From an uncultured Croceitalea sp. (GTDB lineage Bacteria; Bacteroidota; Bacteroidia; Flavobacteriales; Flavobacteriaceae), in contig CANMOV010000002.1 of the NCBI GenBank assembly GCA_947499565.1, positions 496,001-560,000 of the forward strand: DNA of 64,000 nt. The letters are read 5' to 3'. The notes below the pieces were generated by a model, which searched no databases, had not been told where the DNA came from, and saw nothing but the letters and a program-made list of their open reading frames with translations. Position numbers and translations under genes: made by a program. Each line of letters begins with the position of its first letter. The first letter of the stretch is position 1. This document shows, in pieces, positions 6,056-61,177 of this stretch.

Positions 6056-7186
6056 ATGCAGAAAGGATTAATTACATTATTTTTAATAGTGTTTGGCTTA
6101 ACCATTTCCATAGGCCAGAATACAACCAAGACGCTGGATTCGGAAATTAAAAATCTATATAAATCTTTAGAGATACCTGGCTTTTCCGTAGCTATAGTTA
6201 ATTCAGATTCCGTGGTATTTCAAAAAAGTTATGGCTATGAGAATCTGGATCAACACTTAAAATTTTCTGCCAAGAAAAGATTTAATATTGCCTCAATATC
6301 AAAGACCTTTATAGGTATTGGTATTATGTCACTAATAGAGCAGGGAAAATTTACCTTAGATACACCTATTAATGATTTGTTGCCATTTAAAGTGTATAAT
6401 CCGAACAATAGTACTAAAATTACCATCAGGCATTTGGCAACCCATACATCATCTATTTTAGATAATGACATCGGACAGAAATCGTGGTACTTAGATGGTG
6501 CCTTAAAACTTTCAAAAAAGGAAGTTGATAGGGATACTTACAAGACCTTTTGCAGTTGGGCGGATAATACTCGAACAAGCCTTGGTGATTTTTTAAAATC
6601 ATCTTTAACTAAAGAAGGAAACCATTACTCTAAGAAAAGATTCGCGAAGACGGCACCAGGAGATACATACGTATATAGCAATATCGGTGCAGCTTTAGCT
6701 GCATATATTATAGAATTAAAGACTGGTATGTCGTATGATGTATTCATAGAAAAATTAGTTGCAAAAGAATTTGGTTTCCCACCAAATGTATGGAAGCATA
6801 CCTCAGAACAGCTTCCTACTAGCTATTTTCAGAATAAAATAGAAATTCCGACCTATCGTCCTATTTTGTATCCAACAGGCGGTATGATGCTTTCATGTGA
6901 AGAATTATCTCGCTATTTGTCATCTATGATTAAAGGCTTTAAGGGTGAAAGTAAAATTCTAAAGCCAGAATCATTTCAAAAAATGATGAACCTATCTGAA
7001 GGAAATGGTGTTTTTTGGGAATTAAAGGGCAATAAAGTTGGACATAATGGTGGTAATTATGGAGTTATATGTTTAATGAGTTTTGATAAAGAGACAGGTA
7101 TTGGTAAGATTCTGATGACTAACATAAGTTCGTATGCTTCTGATAACATATTGAAACAAGTTGTAAAAATCTGGGGCGCAATATGA
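6056..7186 (+). CDS. exported beta-lactamase-family serine hydrolase
   Basis: A 376-residue class C beta-lactamase/DD-peptidase-fold hydrolase. The signal peptide ends near GLTISIGQ. The catalytic tetrad motif is SISK (Ser80, Lys83), followed by the second motif YSN at about 206-208 and a late HNGG at about residue 337, in the place of the KTG/HxG triad. These enzymes act on esters, D-amino-acid peptides or beta-lactams in the periplasm; the substrate is not predictable. It is clearly paralogous to the lipoprotein at 18089-19306: both share ASISKT..IG, LPFKV.NPN, IR.LA.HTSSI and a YSN.G block. It follows the AraC regulator. Confidence 0.8.
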   Translation: MQKGLITLFLIVFGLTISIGQNTTKTLDSEIKNLYKSLEIPGFSVAIVNSDSVVFQKSYGYENLDQHLKFSAKKRFNIASISKTFIGIGIMSLIEQGKFTLDTPINDLLPFKVYNPNNSTKITIRHLATHTSSILDNDIGQKSWYLDGALKLSKKEVDRDTYKTFCSWADNTRTSLGDFLKSSLTKEGNHYSKKRFAKTAPGDTYVYSNIGAALAAYIIELKTGMSYDVFIEKLVAKEFGFPPNVWKHTSEQLPTSYFQNKIEIPTYRPILYPTGGMMLSCEELSRYLSSMIKGFKGESKILKPESFQKMMNLSEGNGVFWELKGNKVGHNGGNYGVICLMSFDKETGIGKILMTNISSYASDNILKQVVKIWGAI

Positions 7187-51730: not shown

Positions 51731-52012
51731 TTATTTTTCTACGGTAACCCCTTTCCAAAAAGCTACTCTTCCTTTAATTTGTTTAGCTAGCTCACTAGTT
51801 TCTGGATAATACCAAGCCGCGTCAGTATTAGTTTTTCCATCAACTTCAAGTGAGTAGTAAGAAGCCATACCTTTCCATGGGCAGTTGGTATGCGTTTCAC
51901 TTGGTTTAAAAAATTCTTTTTTAATGCTTTCTGCAGGAAAATAGTGATTATTCTCAACAACTAGCGTATTGTCACTTTCTGCTATAACAGTATTATTCCA
52001 AATTGCTTTCAT
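51731..52012 (-). CDS. DUF427 domain protein
   Basis: A 93-residue protein of the DUF427 family. AIWNNTVIAESDNTLVVENNHYFPAESIKKEFFKPSETHTNCPWKGMASYYSLEV is the classic pattern, including the CPWKG motif. It is the last gene of the egtB-egtD unit, overlapping egtD by 4 bp (ATGA). Function is unproven; the genetic link suggests a role with ergothioneine or a related thiol. Confidence 0.85.
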   Translation of the reverse strand: MKAIWNNTVIAESDNTLVVENNHYFPAESIKKEFFKPSETHTNCPWKGMASYYSLEVDGKTNTDAAWYYPETSELAKQIKGRVAFWKGVTVEK

Positions 52013-52983
52013 CCGATTTTCTTTTTAAAAATGTAGTTTTTGTAAAATTTATTTTCATCACTAAAATGATGTGTGATTTTAAGACCCGCTTCATTTGCTA
52101 GCCATGCAACCACATCATCGTCGTACTTTTGAGAGATTTCCGTATGTATAGTTTCCCAAGCTTTAAAGTTGACTTCTAAGTCCAATCCACTAATCCGTAT
52201 GGCTTGTTTTTCTTTAGAAACCAAATAACTTTTTGCAGTGCCAGTCTCCGGATCATAAACCTCCCAGTGTATGAACTTATCTAAATCAAAATTACCATCC
52301 ATTTCTTTGTTGATACGGGCAAGTATATTCTTATTGAATGCTTCCGTAATCCCAGTTTTATCATTGTAAGCATCCAATATAGCCTGCGGATTTTTCTTTT
52401 GATCAAATCCCATAAAAATTAAATCATCCTCATTTAATACTTCTTGCATGTTTTTAAGAAATGAAATTGCCTGCGGATGCAATAAGTTTCCAATATTAGA
52501 GCCTAAAAAAAGAATTACTTTACGTTTATTGCTGCTTTTGCCAATATCTGCCAGCGTATCAAAATAGGTGCCTTGTATAGTATTAATTTCAACACTTGGT
52601 AATTCTTTAGTAACAGCGGTTTCTAATTGGTCTAGTGCATTTTGACTAATATCAATAGGGCTGTAATCAAAATCAATATCTTTTTCTGAAAAATGGCGTA
52701 GGAGAATTTTAGTCTTTTTACCATCGCCAGCACCCAATTCAAAAAGGCTAAAAGGCTTATTGCTATTCGTAAAAATCTCGGCTATCCTTTCTTTATGATA
52801 TTCCAAAATATGAAACTCGCAGTCAGTAAGGTAGTATTCTGGCATTGCCATAATATCTTGAAAAAGTTTATCACCAATTTCGTCGTAAAAATACTTAGAG
52901 GATAAAAACTTTGGTTGAGCTGTTAAACCATCATAGACTTCTTGCTCAAAAGCTGAGGTTAATACGGTAGATTTCTCTTGCAT
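52009..52983 (-). CDS. egtD: L-histidine N-alpha-methyltransferase EgtD
   Basis: A 324-residue S-adenosylmethionine-dependent enzyme that trimethylates histidine to hercynine, the first step of ergothioneine synthesis. The SAM loop FSLFELGAGDGKKTKILL, the segment VILFLGSNIGNLLHPQA and the histidine-binding segment near the C-terminus fit the family. Length matches mycobacterial EgtD (about 320). It lies 16 bp after egtB and overlaps DUF427. Confidence 0.92.
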   Translation of the reverse strand: MQEKSTVLTSAFEQEVYDGLTAQPKFLSSKYFYDEIGDKLFQDIMAMPEYYLTDCEFHILEYHKERIAEIFTNSNKPFSLFELGAGDGKKTKILLRHFSEKDIDFDYSPIDISQNALDQLETAVTKELPSVEINTIQGTYFDTLADIGKSSNKRKVILFLGSNIGNLLHPQAISFLKNMQEVLNEDDLIFMGFDQKKNPQAILDAYNDKTGITEAFNKNILARINKEMDGNFDLDKFIHWEVYDPETGTAKSYLVSKEKQAIRISGLDLEVNFKAWETIHTEISQKYDDDVVAWLANEAGLKITHHFSDENKFYKNYIFKKKIG

Positions 52984-52999
52984 TTGTTTTTTGTCGTGA

Positions 53000-54160
53000 T
53001 TATTTGGCTAACCTTAATCCGGTAAATTGCCATCTTAAATTTGGATGAAAAAAGTTTCTGTATGTAGGTCTAGTATGTTTTTCTGAAGTTGCTATTGAGC
53101 CACCTCGTAGAACTTTTTGGTTTACCATGAATTTGCCATTGTATTCCCCTAAAGCACCGTCTGCTTTTTGGTAATTTGGGTATGGTAGATAAGCACTTTC
53201 CGTCCATTCCCATCGTTTCCCCCATGGAAAATATTGCTGTGCAATTTCCCATTCAAATTCTGTCGGTAATCGCAATCCCTTCCATTGCGCATATGCAAAA
53301 GCTTCAAAATAGGCGATATGGGCTAAAGGAGCATTCATGTCTATTTTTTTTAATCCAGCATAGGTGTAATAATGCCACTCATTATCAATTTTGTGCCAGT
53401 ACAGCGGGGATTTAATTTTATTTAAGCTTACCCAATCCCATCCTTCAGCATGCCATAGGTCAAATCTTTCATATCCATTAGCATCTATAAACGCAATAAA
53501 TTCTCCGTTTGTAACAAGTTTATTGGAAATTTCATAGGCATTCAGGTACACTTTGTGCTTTCCTAATTCATTATCATAGCAAAATCCTTGGGAATTATGA
53601 CCTACTTCATACACGCCTTCTTCAACAGAAATCCAATCTTGTTGATGATTCTCAACTGGATGGTCTAAAATTCTTTTGGAATATGCGGGAAGTAAAGGAT
53701 TGTTTCCTAGAATATATTTGATGTCTGTGAGTAATAATTCTTGATGTTGTTTCTCGTGATGTATACCAATTTCAAGCAAGTCGTTTAAGGTTTGTGGTTG
53801 TTCAACTTCAAAGAGTTTTTTAACAGCTGCTGTGATATATTTTCGGTATTCGTAAACTTTTTTAACCGATGGGCGACTCATATTGCCACGGTCAGATCGT
53901 ACTACTCTTTTACCTACAGTTTCGTAATAACTATTAAACACAAATGAGAAGTCCGCATCAAAAATTTGATAATTTTCAATATGCGGTTTTAAGATAAATT
54001 CTTCGAAAAACCATGTCGTATGGCCTAAGTGCCATTTTGGGGGACTAACATCAACTACTGGTTGTACTACATAGTCTTCAGTCTCAAGGGGTGTACAAAT
54101 AGTTTCAGAATGTGCACGGGTTTCAAGAAAAAACTCCAAAAGGGAATCGGTAGCAATCAT
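53000..54160 (-). CDS. egtB: hercynine oxygenase EgtB (sulfoxide synthase)
   Basis: A 386-residue iron enzyme. It joins a sulfur donor to hercynine by oxidative C-S bond formation. The DinB-like N-domain supplies the three-His iron site: His47 in WHLGHTTWFFEE, and His135/His139 in HHEKQHQELLL. The C-terminal FGE-sulfatase-like domain carries LRLPTEFEWEIAQQYFPWGKRWEWTESAYLPYP and VLRGGSIATSEKHTRPTYRNFF. It is somewhat shorter than the mycobacterial protein (about 430). No EgtA or EgtC is nearby, so the sulfur donor may be cysteine; that is inference. Confidence 0.92.
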   Translation of the reverse strand: MIATDSLLEFFLETRAHSETICTPLETEDYVVQPVVDVSPPKWHLGHTTWFFEEFILKPHIENYQIFDADFSFVFNSYYETVGKRVVRSDRGNMSRPSVKKVYEYRKYITAAVKKLFEVEQPQTLNDLLEIGIHHEKQHQELLLTDIKYILGNNPLLPAYSKRILDHPVENHQQDWISVEEGVYEVGHNSQGFCYDNELGKHKVYLNAYEISNKLVTNGEFIAFIDANGYERFDLWHAEGWDWVSLNKIKSPLYWHKIDNEWHYYTYAGLKKIDMNAPLAHIAYFEAFAYAQWKGLRLPTEFEWEIAQQYFPWGKRWEWTESAYLPYPNYQKADGALGEYNGKFMVNQKVLRGGSIATSEKHTRPTYRNFFHPNLRWQFTGLRLAK

Positions 54161-54223: not shown

Positions 54224-55717
54224 TTATGCCATCTGATAAATAGGTAAACTAAAACTAAAGGAAGTTCCTTCATTAGGCTTGCTTAGTACCCTGATACTAG
54301 CGTTGTGAAGCTCCATAATCTTTTTTACTATCGCCAAACCAAGTCCAGCACCTTCTTTATGTTCACCAGTTTTCGTCTGTCTATAACGTTCAAAAATTAA
54401 AGCCTGATTTTCTTGTTTTATACCTGGTCCAGAATCCTTGATAGTAATTTCAATATCTTCATTTTTTGGAGTTATTTGTACAATTACCTCACCATTTTCG
54501 GGTGTGAATTTTAGGGCGTTATCCATTAAATTCTGGATTGCTCTTTCCACTAACGAAATATCAGCAAATACGAGAGGGATTCCTTCGCCCATTTCCAGTT
54601 TTAATTTAATATTCTTTTGTTTTGCCAAAACATTATAGTTTCTATGTATATCGTTGGCGAGCTCACTTATCAAAAACGGCTCTTTTTGAGGTTCAATTTG
54701 ATTGGCTTCTAGTTTCGAATATTCAAATAATTGCGAAATTAATTTTGAAAGTCTCTCCCCACTCTTATTTATAGTTTTTAAGTAGTCTGATCGTTCTTGT
54801 TTGGTTAAATCTTCATCCTTCATTTGAAGCGTTTCAATATAACCTTGAATAATAGAAAGAGGCGTGCGTAAATCATGAGAAATGTTGGCAATAAGTTCTC
54901 TTCGTAATTTTTCGACAGACTTAATTTTATCAATATCACTTAAGATTGTTTCTGCCATTTCATTGTAGGTAGTAGTCACACCCGCTAAATCGCTTTTATC
55001 AGCATCTTTAATTCTATATTCAAGATCACCCTGTTGAAAACGTTTAGCAGCAAAAACTAATTCGCGTAAGTTTTTAGTAAGATACCAAACGGATAAAATT
55101 CCAAGAATTGCTGCAAATAGTAGCGTTAGAATTGAAGTTCCTAAACCAAGTTTTAGCGCATAACTTTTAAAAAGATTATCGCGAGTAGTAAGGTATTCTT
55201 CCCCAGCTAAGATGATATATACATACCCTTCTTTGCCTCCTTTATTGAATTTTGCAGCTGAAAAAACTTTTTGATTAGCATTGTTTTTAGGGTCATCACC
55301 AAGAATATAACTTTCCCCATTGTTTGTTATATACTTCTTAATGGGAGCTAAGGCTACCTTTTTCTGATTGGTCTCTGGTGCATCATGGTCTAAAACTACA
55401 GAATACTGCACGTTACCGTCCATATCTAACAAATACACTTCTATTGCTCGGTTCACAGCCATCATATCATGCATAATGTCTCCAAACAATACTTTATTTA
55501 TTGCTCCTGTGCTATCAATAGGGGAAGCATCAACAAATTTCTCATCAATTAAATCTTGAGCAAGATTGGCATGTAAACGTTGTGTGGTTTCATAGAAATA
55601 TTGATTGGATAAATAAATAGTAGCTATGGTATAGCCTAAACCTGCCAATAGTAGAATAGCTAAAAAAGAAAGGGTTAATTTTTTTACTAACCTGTTAGAA
55701 AGTATACTATTGCTCAT
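54224..55717 (-). CDS. membrane sensor histidine kinase
   Basis: A 497-residue kinase. Two transmembrane helices (about 14-34 and 186-208) frame a periplasmic sensor loop of about 150 residues. Next come HAMP (about 206-258), the phospho-acceptor helix ELIANISHDLRTPLSII (His281), and the ATPase domain with NLMDNALKFTPENG, GPGIKQENQALIFERY and GAGLGLAIVKKIM. It is the partner of the response regulator just upstream, with overlapping ATGA. The signal is unknown. Orientation places both divergent from the seven-repeat lipoprotein gene, a possible target. Confidence 0.92.
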   Translation of the reverse strand: MSNSILSNRLVKKLTLSFLAILLLAGLGYTIATIYLSNQYFYETTQRLHANLAQDLIDEKFVDASPIDSTGAINKVLFGDIMHDMMAVNRAIEVYLLDMDGNVQYSVVLDHDAPETNQKKVALAPIKKYITNNGESYILGDDPKNNANQKVFSAAKFNKGGKEGYVYIILAGEEYLTTRDNLFKSYALKLGLGTSILTLLFAAILGILSVWYLTKNLRELVFAAKRFQQGDLEYRIKDADKSDLAGVTTTYNEMAETILSDIDKIKSVEKLRRELIANISHDLRTPLSIIQGYIETLQMKDEDLTKQERSDYLKTINKSGERLSKLISQLFEYSKLEANQIEPQKEPFLISELANDIHRNYNVLAKQKNIKLKLEMGEGIPLVFADISLVERAIQNLMDNALKFTPENGEVIVQITPKNEDIEITIKDSGPGIKQENQALIFERYRQTKTGEHKEGAGLGLAIVKKIMELHNASIRVLSKPNEGTSFSFSLPIYQMA

Positions 55718-56421
55718 AATTCTTCATTGAATTTATATCCAACACCCCATGTGGTTAAAATAAACTTTGGATTACTCATATCCGGTTCTATTTTAGAACG
55801 TAAACGGTTTATATGGGAATTTACCGTATGCTCATATCCTTTAAAATCATAACCCCAAATAAGGTTTAACAACTTGGTCCGATCATAACTTTTTCCAGGG
55901 TTAGAAGACAAGAAAACTAGTAATTCAAATTCTTTAGGAGAAAGCTCAATCTTTATACCATCTAATATTACTTTACGCATTTCCACATCTACTGATAGAT
56001 TGTCGAAGTGGATTACTTTTTCACCACTAGCGGTATTTACATCTTCCCTAACAGACATTTTCTGTCTTCTAAATATTGCCTTTACGCGTGCAATAAATTC
56101 TCTTACACTAAAAGGTTTTGTAAGGTAATCATCAGCTCCAACCTCAAGTCCTAAGACTTTATCAATTTCTTCAGACCGGGCGGTAAGCATCATTATTGGG
56201 GACTTTATATCATTAGCTCTAATCTTCTGGCATACTTCAATACCATCCATTTCTGGTAGCATAACATCTAAGATTATCAAATCCGGAACTTGCTCTATGG
56301 CTTTACGCAGACCATCATCACCTTGAGTAGATGAGTCTACTATACAACCTAAATCTTTCAAGTGTATTTCTAATAAATGAATGATTTCAGGGTCATCTTC
56401 AATAATCAATACATTTTTCAT
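55714..56421 (-). CDS. OmpR/PhoB-family response regulator
   Basis: A 235-residue regulator. The receiver domain (about 1-118) has the acidic pair EDD (8-10), phospho-acceptor Asp52 in LIILDVMLPEMDG, and the switch Lys in GADDYLTKPFSVREF. A winged-helix DNA-binding domain follows (about 140-233, with LSPKEFELLVFLSSNPGKSYDRTKLLNLIWGYDF). The ATG at 56421 gives MKNVLIIEDD; an in-frame ATG two codons earlier exists. It overlaps the kinase gene by 4 bp. Confidence 0.93.
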   Translation of the reverse strand: MKNVLIIEDDPEIIHLLEIHLKDLGCIVDSSTQGDDGLRKAIEQVPDLIILDVMLPEMDGIEVCQKIRANDIKSPIMMLTARSEEIDKVLGLEVGADDYLTKPFSVREFIARVKAIFRRQKMSVREDVNTASGEKVIHFDNLSVDVEMRKVILDGIKIELSPKEFELLVFLSSNPGKSYDRTKLLNLIWGYDFKGYEHTVNSHINRLRSKIEPDMSNPKFILTTWGVGYKFNEEL

Positions 56422-56642
56422 GCACAACGAATTAAAGGGTAAAATGTCACGGAAAGTTCACAGTTTAGAATTTAAAGTTGTGAATCCCGATTTATAGAGT
56501 CGGTATTATTTTAATTTTCTTGCATTAAATGGTTAAAATAATAGTTAAATAATTGAAAATGAGTGTTTAACAAAAGTTGAATTTTATGTGATACTTCTGT
56601 TACAAGTTCAAAGTTTCTTTGGGTAAACTTTAAACACTAGAA

Positions 56643-59054
56643 ATGATGAACAACTTAAAAACAATTTTCGGTTTACTTTCTATGGGGATTATGCTCCTAG
56701 GATGTGAAGCTGAGAATGATGATGAAGGAGCGGTGACTTTAGATGCTGGCTCACTATCTGGAGGACCTTTTACATTTACTGTTGATGGCGAGCCAGACAT
56801 GGTAAGTGGTATTACTTTAGATGATACCAATTTAACCGGAACTATACAGGGATATGTAATTACGGATGATTCTAAAAATATTTTGGGATTACCGCCAACA
56901 TTAGCTGCAGTTGAAGGGGTGAATTTTGATGAAGCAGGAGCTGGCTCTTGTTACATTTACCATTTAACCTACGAAGAAGGTTTAACAGGATTGGCAGCTG
57001 GAGAAAATTTAGAAGATTTGGCAGGAGATTTTGACCTGTCTAATTTCTTGGTAGTTAATCGTAACGCTCTTAATGCTGGAATTTTAGCAGGAGGACCATT
57101 TGAATTTGCTGTGGATGGTGTGCCAGATATGGTAAGTGGAATAACTTTAGATGATTCAGAATTAAATGGAGATATTCAAACCTATGTGATAACTGATGAT
57201 GCTAAAAACATTTTAGGTTTGCCTCCAACACTAGAAGCGGTTGAAGGTGTAGATTTCGATGGTGCCGGAGTAGGGTCTTGTTATATCTTTCACCTAACCT
57301 ATTCTGGGGAATTAGCAGGATTAGAAGGTGGAAAGAACTTAGAAGATTTAGCAGGTAATTTTAATCTCTCTAATTTTTTAATGGTTAATAGAAGCGCATT
57401 GAATGCTGGGGTATTATCTGGAGGCCCTTATGAGTTTGTTGTAGATGGTATCCCAGATATGGTTAGTGAGATTTCATTAGACGATTCCGAATTAAATGGA
57501 GACAAACAAACTTATGTAATTACAGATGATTCCAAGAATATCTTAGGAATTCCTCCAACACTTGAAGCAGTTAAAGGGGTCGATTTTGATGGTGCTGGCG
57601 TTGGTTCTTGCTATATCTATCATTTAACATATTCAGCAGAGCTAGAAGGCTTAGAAGCTGGAAAGAATTTAGATGGGTTGACGGGTAATTTTGGTCTTTC
57701 CAATTTTGTCATAGTTAATAGAAATGCATTAAATGCAGGTGCATTAAACGGCGGACCTTATAATTTTGTTGTAGATGGTGTGCCAGATATGGTTAGCGAG
57801 ATTTCATTAGATGATTCTGAATTGAATGGGGATAAGCAGACTTATGTGATTACGGATGATTCCAAGAATATCTTAGGGATACCTCCTACACTTGAGGCAG
57901 TTAAGGGGGTGGATTTTGATGGTGCTGGCGTTGGTTCTTGCTATATCTATCATTTAACCTATTCTACTGGTCTTGAAGGTTTAGCGGCTGGTAATAACCT
58001 AGAGGGATTAACGGGTAATTTTGACCTATCTAATTTTGTAGTGGTTAACCGTAATGCTTTAAATGCAGGAAAACTAGCGGGCGGACCTTATAATTTTGTT
58101 GTAGATGGTGTGCCAGATATGGTACAGAATATTTCATTAGATTCCTCTGAGTTAAATGGTGATAAGCAGACTTATGTAATTACGGATGATTCTAAAAATA
58201 TTTTAGGAATTCCTCCAACACTTGAAGCGGTTAAAGGAGTGAATTTTGATGGTGCTGGAGTTGGTTCTTGTTACATCTATCACTTAACCTATTCGACAGA
58301 TTTAGGTGGTTTAGAAGCTGGAAATAATTTGGCTAGCTTAACTGGCGAATTTGACCTTTCTAACTTTATAGTAGTTAATCGGAATGCTTTAAACGCTGGT
58401 AAATTAAATGGAGGACCTTATAATTTTGTAGTTGATGGAACACCGGATATGGTACAAAATATTTATTTAGATGATTCTGAATTAAATGGGGATAAACAAA
58501 CTTATGTAATTACAGATGATTCCAAGAACATTTTAGGCATTCCTCCAACACTTGAAGCGGTTAAAGGAGTAGATTTTGATGCTGCTGGAGTTGGTTCTTG
58601 TTACATCTTTCATTTAACATACTCCACTGATTTAGAAGGTCTGGAAGGTGGTAATAATTTGGCTGATTTAACAGGTGAGTTTGACCTTTCTAACTTTGTA
58701 GTTGTAAATAGAAAAGCATTAGACGCTGGTGTCTTAAATGGCGGTCCTTTTGAATTTATTGTTGATGGTTACCCAGATATGGTTAGTGGAATTTATTTAG
58801 ATGATACCAATCTAACAGGTAGCAATCAAACCTTCGTAATTACCGATGATTCTAAGAATATTTTGGGCTTACCACCAACATTAGAAGCTGTTGAAGGTGT
58901 AGATTTTGATGCGGCAGGTGTAGGTATCTGCTATATCTGGCACTTAACATATGAAGGAGAGTTAACTGGATTGGAAGCCGGTAAAAATGTAGCTGATTTA
59001 GAAGGCGCTTTCGATTTATCAAACTTTATTAAAGTTCGAAGAAAAGTACATTAA
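56643..59054 (+). CDS. lipoprotein built of seven 110-residue tandem repeats
   Basis: An 803-residue lipoprotein (lipobox LLGC, Cys21). After a short acidic linker, everything from residue 35 to the end is seven tandem copies of one 110-residue unit. Each unit reads roughly AG.L.GGP..F.VDG.PDMV, then ITDDSKNILG(L/I)PPTLEAV, F..AGVGSCYI.HLTY, LSNF..VNR. Each has one Cys and many Asp/Glu and Gly. The unit resembles a beta-rich repeat of large Bacteroidota surface proteins, known to me from sequence only, with no assigned function. The mature protein is strongly acidic. A role as a surface-displayed binding or adhesive stalk is inference. It is divergent from the response regulator, 221 bp away. 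Confidence 0.8.
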   Translation: MMNNLKTIFGLLSMGIMLLGCEAENDDEGAVTLDAGSLSGGPFTFTVDGEPDMVSGITLDDTNLTGTIQGYVITDDSKNILGLPPTLAAVEGVNFDEAGAGSCYIYHLTYEEGLTGLAAGENLEDLAGDFDLSNFLVVNRNALNAGILAGGPFEFAVDGVPDMVSGITLDDSELNGDIQTYVITDDAKNILGLPPTLEAVEGVDFDGAGVGSCYIFHLTYSGELAGLEGGKNLEDLAGNFNLSNFLMVNRSALNAGVLSGGPYEFVVDGIPDMVSEISLDDSELNGDKQTYVITDDSKNILGIPPTLEAVKGVDFDGAGVGSCYIYHLTYSAELEGLEAGKNLDGLTGNFGLSNFVIVNRNALNAGALNGGPYNFVVDGVPDMVSEISLDDSELNGDKQTYVITDDSKNILGIPPTLEAVKGVDFDGAGVGSCYIYHLTYSTGLEGLAAGNNLEGLTGNFDLSNFVVVNRNALNAGKLAGGPYNFVVDGVPDMVQNISLDSSELNGDKQTYVITDDSKNILGIPPTLEAVKGVNFDGAGVGSCYIYHLTYSTDLGGLEAGNNLASLTGEFDLSNFIVVNRNALNAGKLNGGPYNFVVDGTPDMVQNIYLDDSELNGDKQTYVITDDSKNILGIPPTLEAVKGVDFDAAGVGSCYIFHLTYSTDLEGLEGGNNLADLTGEFDLSNFVVVNRKALDAGVLNGGPFEFIVDGYPDMVSGIYLDDTNLTGSNQTFVITDDSKNILGLPPTLEAVEGVDFDAAGVGICYIWHLTYEGELTGLEAGKNVADLEGAFDLSNFIKVRRKVH
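56745..59051 (+). repeat. seven in-frame 330-bp tandem repeats
   Basis: Repeat units begin at 56745, 57075, 57405, 57735, 58065, 58395 and 58725; the last is one codon short of 330. Units 3 to 6 are nearly alike (DSELNGDKQTYVITDDSKNILGIPP...AVKGV). Units 1 and 7 share a different version (DDTNLTG, GLPP, AVEGV). A stretch of 47 nt is identical between units 3 and 4 (57582-57628 and 57912-57958), a mark of recent duplication or gene conversion. Confidence 0.95.
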
Positions 59055-59102: not shown

Positions 59103-59131
59103 GAGCCCAGGCGAGAGTTTGGGCTTTTATT
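59103..59131 (+). terminator. short terminator after the repeat lipoprotein
   Basis: AGCCCA (59104-59109) and TGGGCT (59120-59125) with a T-rich tail. The stem is only 6 bp, so efficiency is uncertain. It overlaps the 3' end of the convergent TonB-domain gene. Confidence 0.55.
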
Positions 59132-59945
59132 GTAATTTAAAAAAGATAGGGATTGAATAGGGTATTTTTACTGGTTTTCCATTTTGTTTGGCTGGTTCCA
59201 TATCTGGAAGATACTGTATAATTCTAACTGCTTCTTTTTCTAGTATCGGATGAGGTCCTTTAGTCCTAATATTTGTTATTTTTCCATTTTTAGATATTGT
59301 AAATACAATTGAAACTTTTCCAGATATTCTTTTTTGTTGAGCCTCATTGGGGTATTTAAAATGATACTTAATGTGTTCTTGCATCTTTTTTTGAAAGCAT
59401 ATTTTTGCTTGTTCTTCATTTAAATTAAAACATCCAGGAAATCTTGGAATTTCTTGGATTAGGCCACCAGAATAGGGTGTTTTTAAAGGTATTTTTTCGA
59501 AAGTGGTTTCCCCATCATTATTGCGGACTACATATTTAAAATCAAATAGGTGTATAGATATGTGTGGTTTAGGTTTTCGATTGATGATACCATTAATAGA
59601 TAATTTTTTAAAAATTGATTCGTACTTCTTGTTTAAGGACTTGTTAATTTTTTTGATGTTAATTCCAAAACCACTTTTGTTTTTATCAATTTGGTTTTGT
59701 GAATTAATAACTAATCTTCCGCCAAGTTTTAAAGTGTCTATTCCTAATTTTGCGAATTTAATTCTATTTTCAAAAAGAAATTTTGAGGTTTTACTTTCTA
59801 AGAATTCATAAAAGCAGGTTGCCTTATCATTAGTTTTTTCACAATTAGAGATTATTACTTGCTCTTGAGGAAAGTATTCAATTTGTTCTTGAGACATTCC
59901 TAATTGGGTAAATACTATAAAAAGTGTCGAAAAAATATACTTCAT
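59127..59945 (-). CDS. TonB C-terminal domain protein
   Basis: A 272-residue exported protein with a signal peptide (IFSTLFIVFTQLGMSQ). The C-terminal about 90 residues are a TonB-type domain (FKYPNEAQQKRISGKVSIVFTISKNGKITNIRTKGPHPILEKEAVRIIQYLPDMEPAKQNGKPVKIPYSIPIFF). The middle is Lys- and Ile-rich without a known domain. It lacks the N-terminal membrane anchor and Pro-rich linker of true TonB, so an energy-transducing role is unlikely; these TonB_C proteins are frequent orphans in Bacteroidota. It lies 7 bp downstream of thyA in the same orientation. Confidence 0.75.
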   Translation of the reverse strand: MKYIFSTLFIVFTQLGMSQEQIEYFPQEQVIISNCEKTNDKATCFYEFLESKTSKFLFENRIKFAKLGIDTLKLGGRLVINSQNQIDKNKSGFGINIKKINKSLNKKYESIFKKLSINGIINRKPKPHISIHLFDFKYVVRNNDGETTFEKIPLKTPYSGGLIQEIPRFPGCFNLNEEQAKICFQKKMQEHIKYHFKYPNEAQQKRISGKVSIVFTISKNGKITNIRTKGPHPILEKEAVRIIQYLPDMEPAKQNGKPVKIPYSIPIFFKLQ

Positions 59946-60823: not shown

Positions 60824-61177
60824 TTAGGATTTATTATATTTTATTAACGATGAGATTCGTTTTTGAAGACTTTGAATATCTCCAATAATTGGCGAAGCTA
60901 CATTTTGATTTATAAATTCTAAATCTTGACAAAGAATAGTATGGGTTTCGAGTTCATAGCTTGAGCCTAAACTTATTTGAAGAAAACGAATAAAATCCTT
61001 TTGGGAATATTTAGAACAACCTTCTGCGATATTTGCAGGAATAGATATTACGGCACGATTAATTTGGGATGTTAATCCATATTTTTCAGAATCAGGGAGA
61101 CTATTGGTAAGCTTGTAAGTTTCTTTTACAAGGAGTCTAGCATCTTTCCATACTTCTAACTCTCTAAAATTCCTCAT
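60824..61177 (-). CDS. four-helix-bundle protein (23S rRNA IVP family)
   Basis: A 117-residue helical protein of the S23/23S rRNA intervening-sequence protein family. RELEVWKDARLLVKETYKLTNSLPDSEKYGLTSQINRAVISIPANIAEGCSKYSQKDFIRFLQISLGSSYELETH is a clear match. These proteins form pentamers of four-helix bundles; function is unknown. It sits between the transporter gene and thyA in the same orientation, not inside an rRNA gene. Confidence 0.9.
   Translation of the reverse strand: MRNFRELEVWKDARLLVKETYKLTNSLPDSEKYGLTSQINRAVISIPANIAEGCSKYSQKDFIRFLQISLGSSYELETHTILCQDLEFINQNVASPIIGDIQSLQKRISSLIKYNKS

Follow-up and report, generated by a model that had tools for sequence, protein, structure and literature searches.

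The locus and its tandem-array lipoprotein

We analyzed a stretch of 64,000 nucleotides (the window) from an uncultured Croceitalea sp. (contig CANMOV010000002.1, positions 496,001 to 560,000), in which a lipoprotein gene lies divergent to the genes of an OmpR/PhoB-class response regulator and a sensor histidine kinase (Table 1). The lipoprotein consists of seven contiguous units that span amino acids 35 to 803, after the lipobox cysteine Cys21 and a 13-residue linker. An earlier reading of this DNA, made without database searches (the sequence-only reading), had described the open reading frame (ORF) as a tandem-array lipoprotein with an exact 330-bp period, divergent to a two-component system. 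Both statements were borne out, the former by the ORF call and array detection (positions 56853-58952, period 330 bp, score 1880, 0% indels) and the latter by the ORF call and a domain scan. The array gene is single-copy in the assembly (3.88 Mb, 19 contigs).

The same reading had called the units near-identical, which does not hold, as pairs of window units share only 67-90% protein identity and 64-83% DNA identity; 64 of 109 unit columns are invariant across all seven. Its distinction between an outer sequence version in units 1 and 7 and an inner one in units 3-6 stands, except that unit 2 joins the outer version: units 3-6 have 'GIPPTLEAVKGV' in common, in place of which units 1, 2, and 7 carry 'GLPPT.xAVEGV'. 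The single conserved cysteine per unit that it had noted is found at the same position in all seven window units.

Table 1. Predicted features of the lipoprotein locus, given in positions of the window.
Feature	Positions	Strand	Basis and remarks
Sensor histidine kinase (HisKA, HATPase_c)	54224..55717	-	Domain scan; HAMP just under cut-off
Kinase sensor part	55148..55615	-	Comparison, 53-87% identical in 20 relatives; PAS/PDC-like in weak model
Response regulator, OmpR/PhoB class (Response_reg + Trans_reg_C)	55714..56427	-	Domain scan
Predicted operator facing response regulator	56441..56462	-	Matrix, score 17.9
Predicted operator facing lipoprotein	56576..56597	+	Matrix, score 15.1; weaker overlapping copy 56587-56608, score 7.0
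Lipoprotein ORF, 803 aa, seven tandem 110-aa units	56643..59054	+	ORF call, tandem-array and unit comparison
Signal peptide and lipobox to Cys21 (LLGC), then residues EAENDDE	56643..56705	+	Sequence
Unit 1	56745..57074	+	Unit comparison
Unit 2	57075..57404	+	Unit comparison
Unit 3	57405..57734	+	Unit comparison
Unit 4	57735..58064	+	Unit comparison
Unit 5, start of AlphaFold2-modelled stretch	58065..58394	+	Unit comparison, model
Unit 6	58395..58724	+	Unit comparison, model
Unit 7, 109 aa	58725..59051	+	Unit comparison, model
TonB_C-domain protein, downstream of array	59127-59945	-	Domain scan

A family of putative surface lipoproteins with predicted Ig-like units

A profile of the unit (A1), built from 33 units, matched 66 of 397 genomes of the same bacterial family and 8 of 395 genomes drawn from the phylum, with the window's genome in both sets. 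The counts of family loci given below rest on a scan of genome contigs that detected 385 relatives, of which the best 80 were kept, giving 79 loci; the scan pattern demanded a cysteine at unit position 69 in at least one unit per locus, and the sequences are related to each other. The main proteins are complete in 72 of the 79 loci. Of the complete ones, 70 are made up entirely of units, numbering two (3 proteins), three (10), four (24), five (22), six (9), seven (1), or eight (1). The remaining two proteins combine three units with a spondin domain (L060) and twelve units with a type IX secretion system (T9SS) sorting domain (L086).

When units were scored singly, they gave no credible match to any Pfam, NCBIfam, or PDB family. 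With the whole protein, Pfam DUF2761 (PF10959) reached 48.6 bits (cut-off 25), the best stretch covering 40 of 94 profile positions; singly, 5 of the 33 units matched (best E 0.0077) and the single-domain cut-off was not reached. Since single units match so weakly, the whole-protein score was read as a sum over repeats and this candidate was rejected. NCBIfam swm_rep_I (TIGR02059) was rejected as well, with 31.2 bits for the whole protein where 40.1 are needed and 5 of 33 single units matching (best E 0.015). A PHROGs match of unknown function (best E 9.2e-10, 25-residue best stretch), scored with the whole protein only, was set aside as a likely repeat sum. A PDB sequence search with the units yielded no credible match, a search of plasmid records no match, and searches of the open-access literature in PubMed Central (PMC) nothing on this lipoprotein family. 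By these comparisons, the unit is a described domain in none of the libraries tried (Pfam, NCBIfam, PDB).

An AlphaFold2 model of the last three window units shows a chain of beta-sandwiches (predicted local distance difference test, pLDDT, 94.7; predicted template modelling score, pTM, 0.81), for which the best Foldseek match was a cadherin chain (E 2.9e-06). From this model, we are confident in predicting that the array forms a head-to-tail chain of immunoglobulin (Ig)-like beta-sandwich beads. The Foldseek likeness to cadherins, or to a named Ig superfamily, is at the level of the common arrangement: cadherin-23 EC22-24 and the adhesin SiiE resemble the array, by fold matches only, as head-to-tail beta-sandwich chains, but the array matches no PDB chain by sequence.

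The lipobox pattern was found in 70 of 80 family proteins, among which are a few false or truncated cases, and its conservation in relatives marks the family protein as a bacterial lipoprotein. The surface-export (lipoprotein export signal, LES) consensus outlined in PMC5080379 has an acidic signal at positions +2 to +6, which the EAENDDE stretch after Cys21 resembles, so that the protein may be located on the outer face of the membrane. At least two D or E residues follow the lipobox in 63 of the 70 proteins with the pattern; the 7 proteins without an acidic tail comprise 3 truncated ORFs, 1 mis-hit of the pattern, and 3 true cases (NKGET).

An exchangeable lipoprotein slot beside a conserved kinase

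The regulator and kinase genes are adjacent and divergent to the family gene in 38 of the 79 loci as well as in the window; among them is the relative with the T9SS sorting domain (L086), the kinase of which is 54% identical. The ergothioneine genes egtB and egtD (positions 52009-54160, minus strand) directly follow the kinase gene and are kept in 33 loci including the window. A profile of the kinase sensor part matched 57 of the 397 genomes; 52 of these matches are strong, with E values of 3e-59 or better. Modelling gave no firm fold for this part (mean pLDDT 68; best Foldseek E 0.0088, to CitA, and none at E 0.001), and a PAS/PDC-like character is suggested with low confidence.

The gene facing the regulator was inspected in all 57 genomes, with G397 assigned by the positions of its unit-profile and sensor-profile matches. 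Representatives were scored for RskA_C (PF10099) and spondin (NF038123), and the other slot genes were labelled by their BLAST matches to them. Among the 52 genomes with a strong kinase match, this slot is taken by the repeat family in 14, by RskA_C lipoproteins in 15, by spondin lipoproteins in 10, and by none of these in 13; in G033, counted with the repeat family, a spondin lipoprotein stands between the regulator and the family gene. The 5 weak-kinase genomes have spondin (3), a same-strand RskA_C gene (1), or another gene (1) in the slot. The unit profile matched none of the 25 strong-kinase genomes with an RskA_C or spondin slot, compared to 8 of the 13 with neither (Fisher p 2.6e-05, ignoring phylogeny). 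Furthermore, the repeat family accompanies the kinase in 22 of the 52 strong-kinase genomes and is present in 44 of the remaining 345 (p 1.7e-06). Single lipoproteins that fuse the unit to the other modules were also found: three units and spondin at the kinase slot (L060, 9575-11812), one unit and spondin (L238, 6564-8168), and one unit and RskA_C (L239, 6420-7631). A weakly related kinase pair in G021 (L256) faces a 1576-aa protein of another type.

Conserved direct-repeat operators

Of 75 intergenic regions between regulator and target, 42 contain the word GTGATACT, where 0.4 would be expected. The refined site, TGTGA-N6-TGTGATAC-TTT, is an 11-bp direct repeat that faces the regulator and often the target too. 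In the window, sites facing either gene lie in the 215 bp that separate regulator and lipoprotein (Table 1). With a matrix trained on these same regions, 74 of the 75 scored above the shuffle threshold. When the matrix was trained on the repeat family alone, the 99th percentile of shuffles was exceeded by 14 of 15 RskA regions and by 10 of 13 spondin regions; conversely, a matrix trained on RskA and spondin regions recovered 42 of 47 family regions (5 of the 47 being second copies from the same genomes). In kinase loci, 64 of 347 upstream regions scored above 7.1, all belonging to the regulator or the facing gene except for one second RskA_C gene (L207). As a control, the 1230 genes of the loci other than regulators were scored: 17 exceeded 7.1, with values up to 9.8 except for one of 14.9, which faces the L085 family gene.

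The operator also marks family genes located away from the kinase. Among those without an adjacent kinase or a Crp palindrome (see below), 14 of 16 have the direct repeat and the other two fall just under the threshold; none of the 14 lies within five genes of a kinase or contributed to training. Of six genomes with the kinase elsewhere (L233-L238), five have the operator before the family gene (scores 11.1-19.1) and the sixth narrowly misses it (6.2).

Within the window's own genome, the strict operator occurs three times (reversed control 1): at the window site, before a gene for an extracytoplasmic function (ECF) sigma factor, and inside an ORF. An ortholog of this ECF gene is present in 30 of 30 chosen kinase-bearing genomes and is preceded by the operator in 26 of them, ECF promoters having been left out of matrix training. 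With one mismatch allowed, the own genome yielded 8 sites against 12 in the reversed control, and the nearest species 16 against 8; of these, only the two-component intergenic and ECF sites scored well before the same gene in both genomes. An intergenic one-mismatch site (L355, score 8.6) had no counterpart in the nearest species, and the shared site L359/L368 had a low score and a position within ORFs. At L359 and L368, in these two genomes, small paralogous ORFs of 92-117 aa are arrayed in tandem ahead of a response-regulator-like gene. Another gene, which from its sequence we take to be msrB (L324, G138), is preceded, at a distance of 77 bp, by a strong operator; since just 3 of 30 genomes have one there, msrB was rejected as a further conserved target beside the lipoprotein and ECF genes.

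These sites have the form of an OmpR/PhoB-class regulon, with a conserved direct-repeat operator upstream of the targets to which the regulator would bind. At the level of conserved DNA sites, control of the lipoprotein gene by the neighboring two-component system is well supported. The sensor control of the array protein put forward in the sequence-only reading is thereby backed, and appears to reach wider than was proposed there.

An alternative Crp/Fnr-type context

A second context, seen in 16 loci, has the family gene after a Crp/Fnr-type gene. A thioredoxin-like gene comes next in 15 of these, and 12 of the 16 have a carotenoid hydroxylase-like gene within five genes (domains scored on one locus, L100). 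The palindrome TGTWA-N6-TDACA lies 68-76 bp before the start codon in 16 of 16 Crp loci (shuffles 0.4%); among 56 other loci, two have it (L104, L090). Seven more Crp-type contexts in other genomes have the palindrome in six cases (absent in L251). It is also found at three family genes with no Crp gene seen alongside (L244, L250, L252), of which L252 also reaches a marginal 7.8 for the direct repeat. Nine of the 397 genomes have a Crp context, and none of the nine is among those matched by the kinase profile. For the 73 family genes with enough upstream sequence (7 were too short for operator typing), the direct repeat was found in 53, the palindrome in 18, both in none, and a score just under the threshold in 2.

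Covarying cysteines suggest two-unit cassettes in relatives

Cysteines were surveyed in 350 units, 7 from the window and 343 from the 79 loci. The position-69 cysteine is present in 350 of 350, and a relative outside that set (L025) has serine instead. Two further cysteines, at positions 12 (C1, 57 units) and 95 (C3, 63 units), never occur together in one unit. In 57 of 57 cases, C1 in one unit is followed by C3 in the next, a count that peaked at 39 in 20,000 within-protein shuffles. Of the C3 units with a known preceding unit, 57 of 61 come after a C1 unit; the remaining 4, all from Aquimarina, have a linker cysteine just ahead, and two further C3 units stand first in truncated ORFs. In the AlphaFold2 model, the C1 position closes an early strand and the C3 position precedes the last strand, so that in a head-to-tail chain both would face each other on adjoining bead ends. 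Moreover, the 21 proteins made solely of C1/C3 pairs have 2, 4, 6, 8, or 12 units, and those without C1/C3 have odd and even numbers. The covariation, together with these even unit numbers, suggests an inter-unit disulfide that staples units in pairs in relatives and is absent from the window's clade. Disulfides between units, one option raised in the sequence-only reading for the conserved cysteine, are thus suggested in relatives, but through two other cysteines, neither of which the window units have. These cysteines suggest a structural rule, two-unit cassettes, for tandem surface rods; the window's clade has arrays without it, and both odd and even unit numbers are found there.

Age of the array and change in unit number

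Across 15 pairs among units 1-6, synonymous divergence (dS) is 0.9-2.4, with synonymous sites near saturation, and nonsynonymous divergence (dN) is 0.06-0.26. Because of this combination, the window units are read as old duplicates under purifying selection and not as freshly homogenized ones, which does not support the earlier proposal of an array still being homogenized.

Repeat number does vary, as had been anticipated, in comparisons between species (one genome per species): the four Croceitalea arrays have 7 (window), 6, 5, and 5 units, and the 70 units-only relatives 2-8. In the nearest species compared (six units), units 1 and 2 align with those of the window at 88% and the last three at 98-99% protein identity. 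Its unit 3 is most similar to window unit 4 (90% DNA identity), followed by units 3 and 5 (82% each), from which sequence comparison places the gain or loss of one unit around positions 3-4. The array gene is present in 4 of 8 genomes of the genus, the window's own included. One assembly without it (L380, G006; 6177-6544) keeps the kinase and the synteny, with the lipoprotein gene missing between the regulator and the downstream neighbor, a TonB_C-type gene in the window. In another, the contig stops within 61 bases of the kinase sensor part, and two less complete assemblies had neither array gene nor kinase at the threshold used.

Proposed mechanism and alternative explanations

We consider it probable that the lipoprotein is a surface rod of seven Ig-like beads and the dedicated output of the adjoining two-component system. 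The kinase would sense an extracytoplasmic signal, whereupon the regulator would bind the 11-bp direct repeats in the shared promoter and switch itself, the lipoprotein gene, and the distant ECF sigma gene; the operator is established by its conservation, and binding, as well as activation rather than repression, is presumed. The lipoprotein would then travel to the outer membrane and, through its acidic export-signal-like tail, to the outer face, where units of the predicted bead fold may stack head to tail into a stalk with a length set by the unit number. Such a stalk could serve as a spacer, adhesin, or shield. In other clades, RskA_C or spondin lipoproteins occupy the same slot, or the same rod would stand under a Crp/Fnr-type regulator. 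More broadly, we lean toward an undescribed surface-response system of marine Flavobacteriaceae, in which a conserved kinase-regulator pair governs both an ECF sigma gene and a single exchangeable lipoprotein drawn from three non-homologous families (Ig-rods of a new domain, RskA_C, and spondin), with kinase-less relatives using a Crp/Fnr-type regulator and the rods of many relatives being disulfide-stapled two-unit cassettes.

An anonymous repeat protein would thereby become part of a defined, testable regulon, with two short operators from which to predict, genome by genome, whether the rod is made and which regulator governs it. The control indicated by these sites makes an uncharacterized bacterial surface response testable in a marine bacterium. 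That unrelated lipoproteins swap in one regulatory slot, and that unrelated regulators precede one lipoprotein, raises the question of which property these proteins share.

Among known systems, DUF1735 and BACON are described as Ig-like spacer domains of Bacteroidota lipoproteins (PMC11216935), resembling the array protein in lipid anchor, Ig-like beta-sandwich, and proposed spacer role. By that description, DUF1735 mostly forms the N-terminal part of proteins from sugar-use loci, with other domains following it, whereas the array makes up the whole protein, lacks a terminal module, and is encoded beside a two-component system. PorX-PorY-SigP of Porphyromonas gingivalis is similarly a Bacteroidota two-component system acting via an ECF sigma factor; as outlined in PMC4800418, however, its components are encoded at separate places, with an interaction between SigP and PorX, whereas in the window the regulator gene adjoins the kinase gene and an operator is the proposed ECF link.

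The lipoprotein could instead be a sensor accessory that touches the periplasmic domain of the kinase and tunes it without being an effector. Parallels for such an arrangement are cpxP beside cpxRA and the lipoprotein NlpE; cpxP likewise encodes an envelope protein divergent from its own two-component system, although CpxP is a small periplasmic protein, unlike the repeat lipoprotein, and is likened to it by arrangement only. An accessory would fit the divergent placement of the lipoprotein gene next to the regulator, the operators pointing to either side, the well-conserved sensor part, and the presence in alternative slot proteins of RskA_C, which lies outside the membrane in anti-sigma factors. 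Yet non-homologous proteins take the slot while the sensor stays conserved, family genes also occur away from the kinase or under a Crp-type operator in genomes without a kinase match, and the acidic tail suggests surface exposure. We therefore regard an accessory role as unlikely.

A redox-active surface protein, in which the conserved cysteine of each unit would react with oxidants or a ligand in an oxidative or light-stress response, appears less probable still. While the cysteine is present in every unit compared and the neighbors include egtB and egtD in one context and thioredoxin-like and carotenoid genes in another, the scan pattern itself demanded this cysteine in at least one unit per locus, L025 has serine at the site, msrB as the candidate oxidative target is rarely preceded by the operator, and the neighboring genes may be coincidental. 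Finally, that tandem Ig arrays merely grow and shrink neutrally beside a two-component system retained as functionless synteny would fit the differing unit numbers and the kinase neighborhood common to 39 loci (window included; egtB/egtD in 33 of them), but is very improbable: the operator is conserved upstream of slot proteins that share no homology and of family genes located apart from the kinase, family genes divide into two operator types, and the units are under purifying selection.

A further variable gene in the window

Downstream of the array, a small ORF (60824-61177, minus strand), presumably four-helix-bundle-like, is present in some relatives and absent at the same place in others; its flanking genes we take to encode a thymidylate synthase and a nucleoside transporter.
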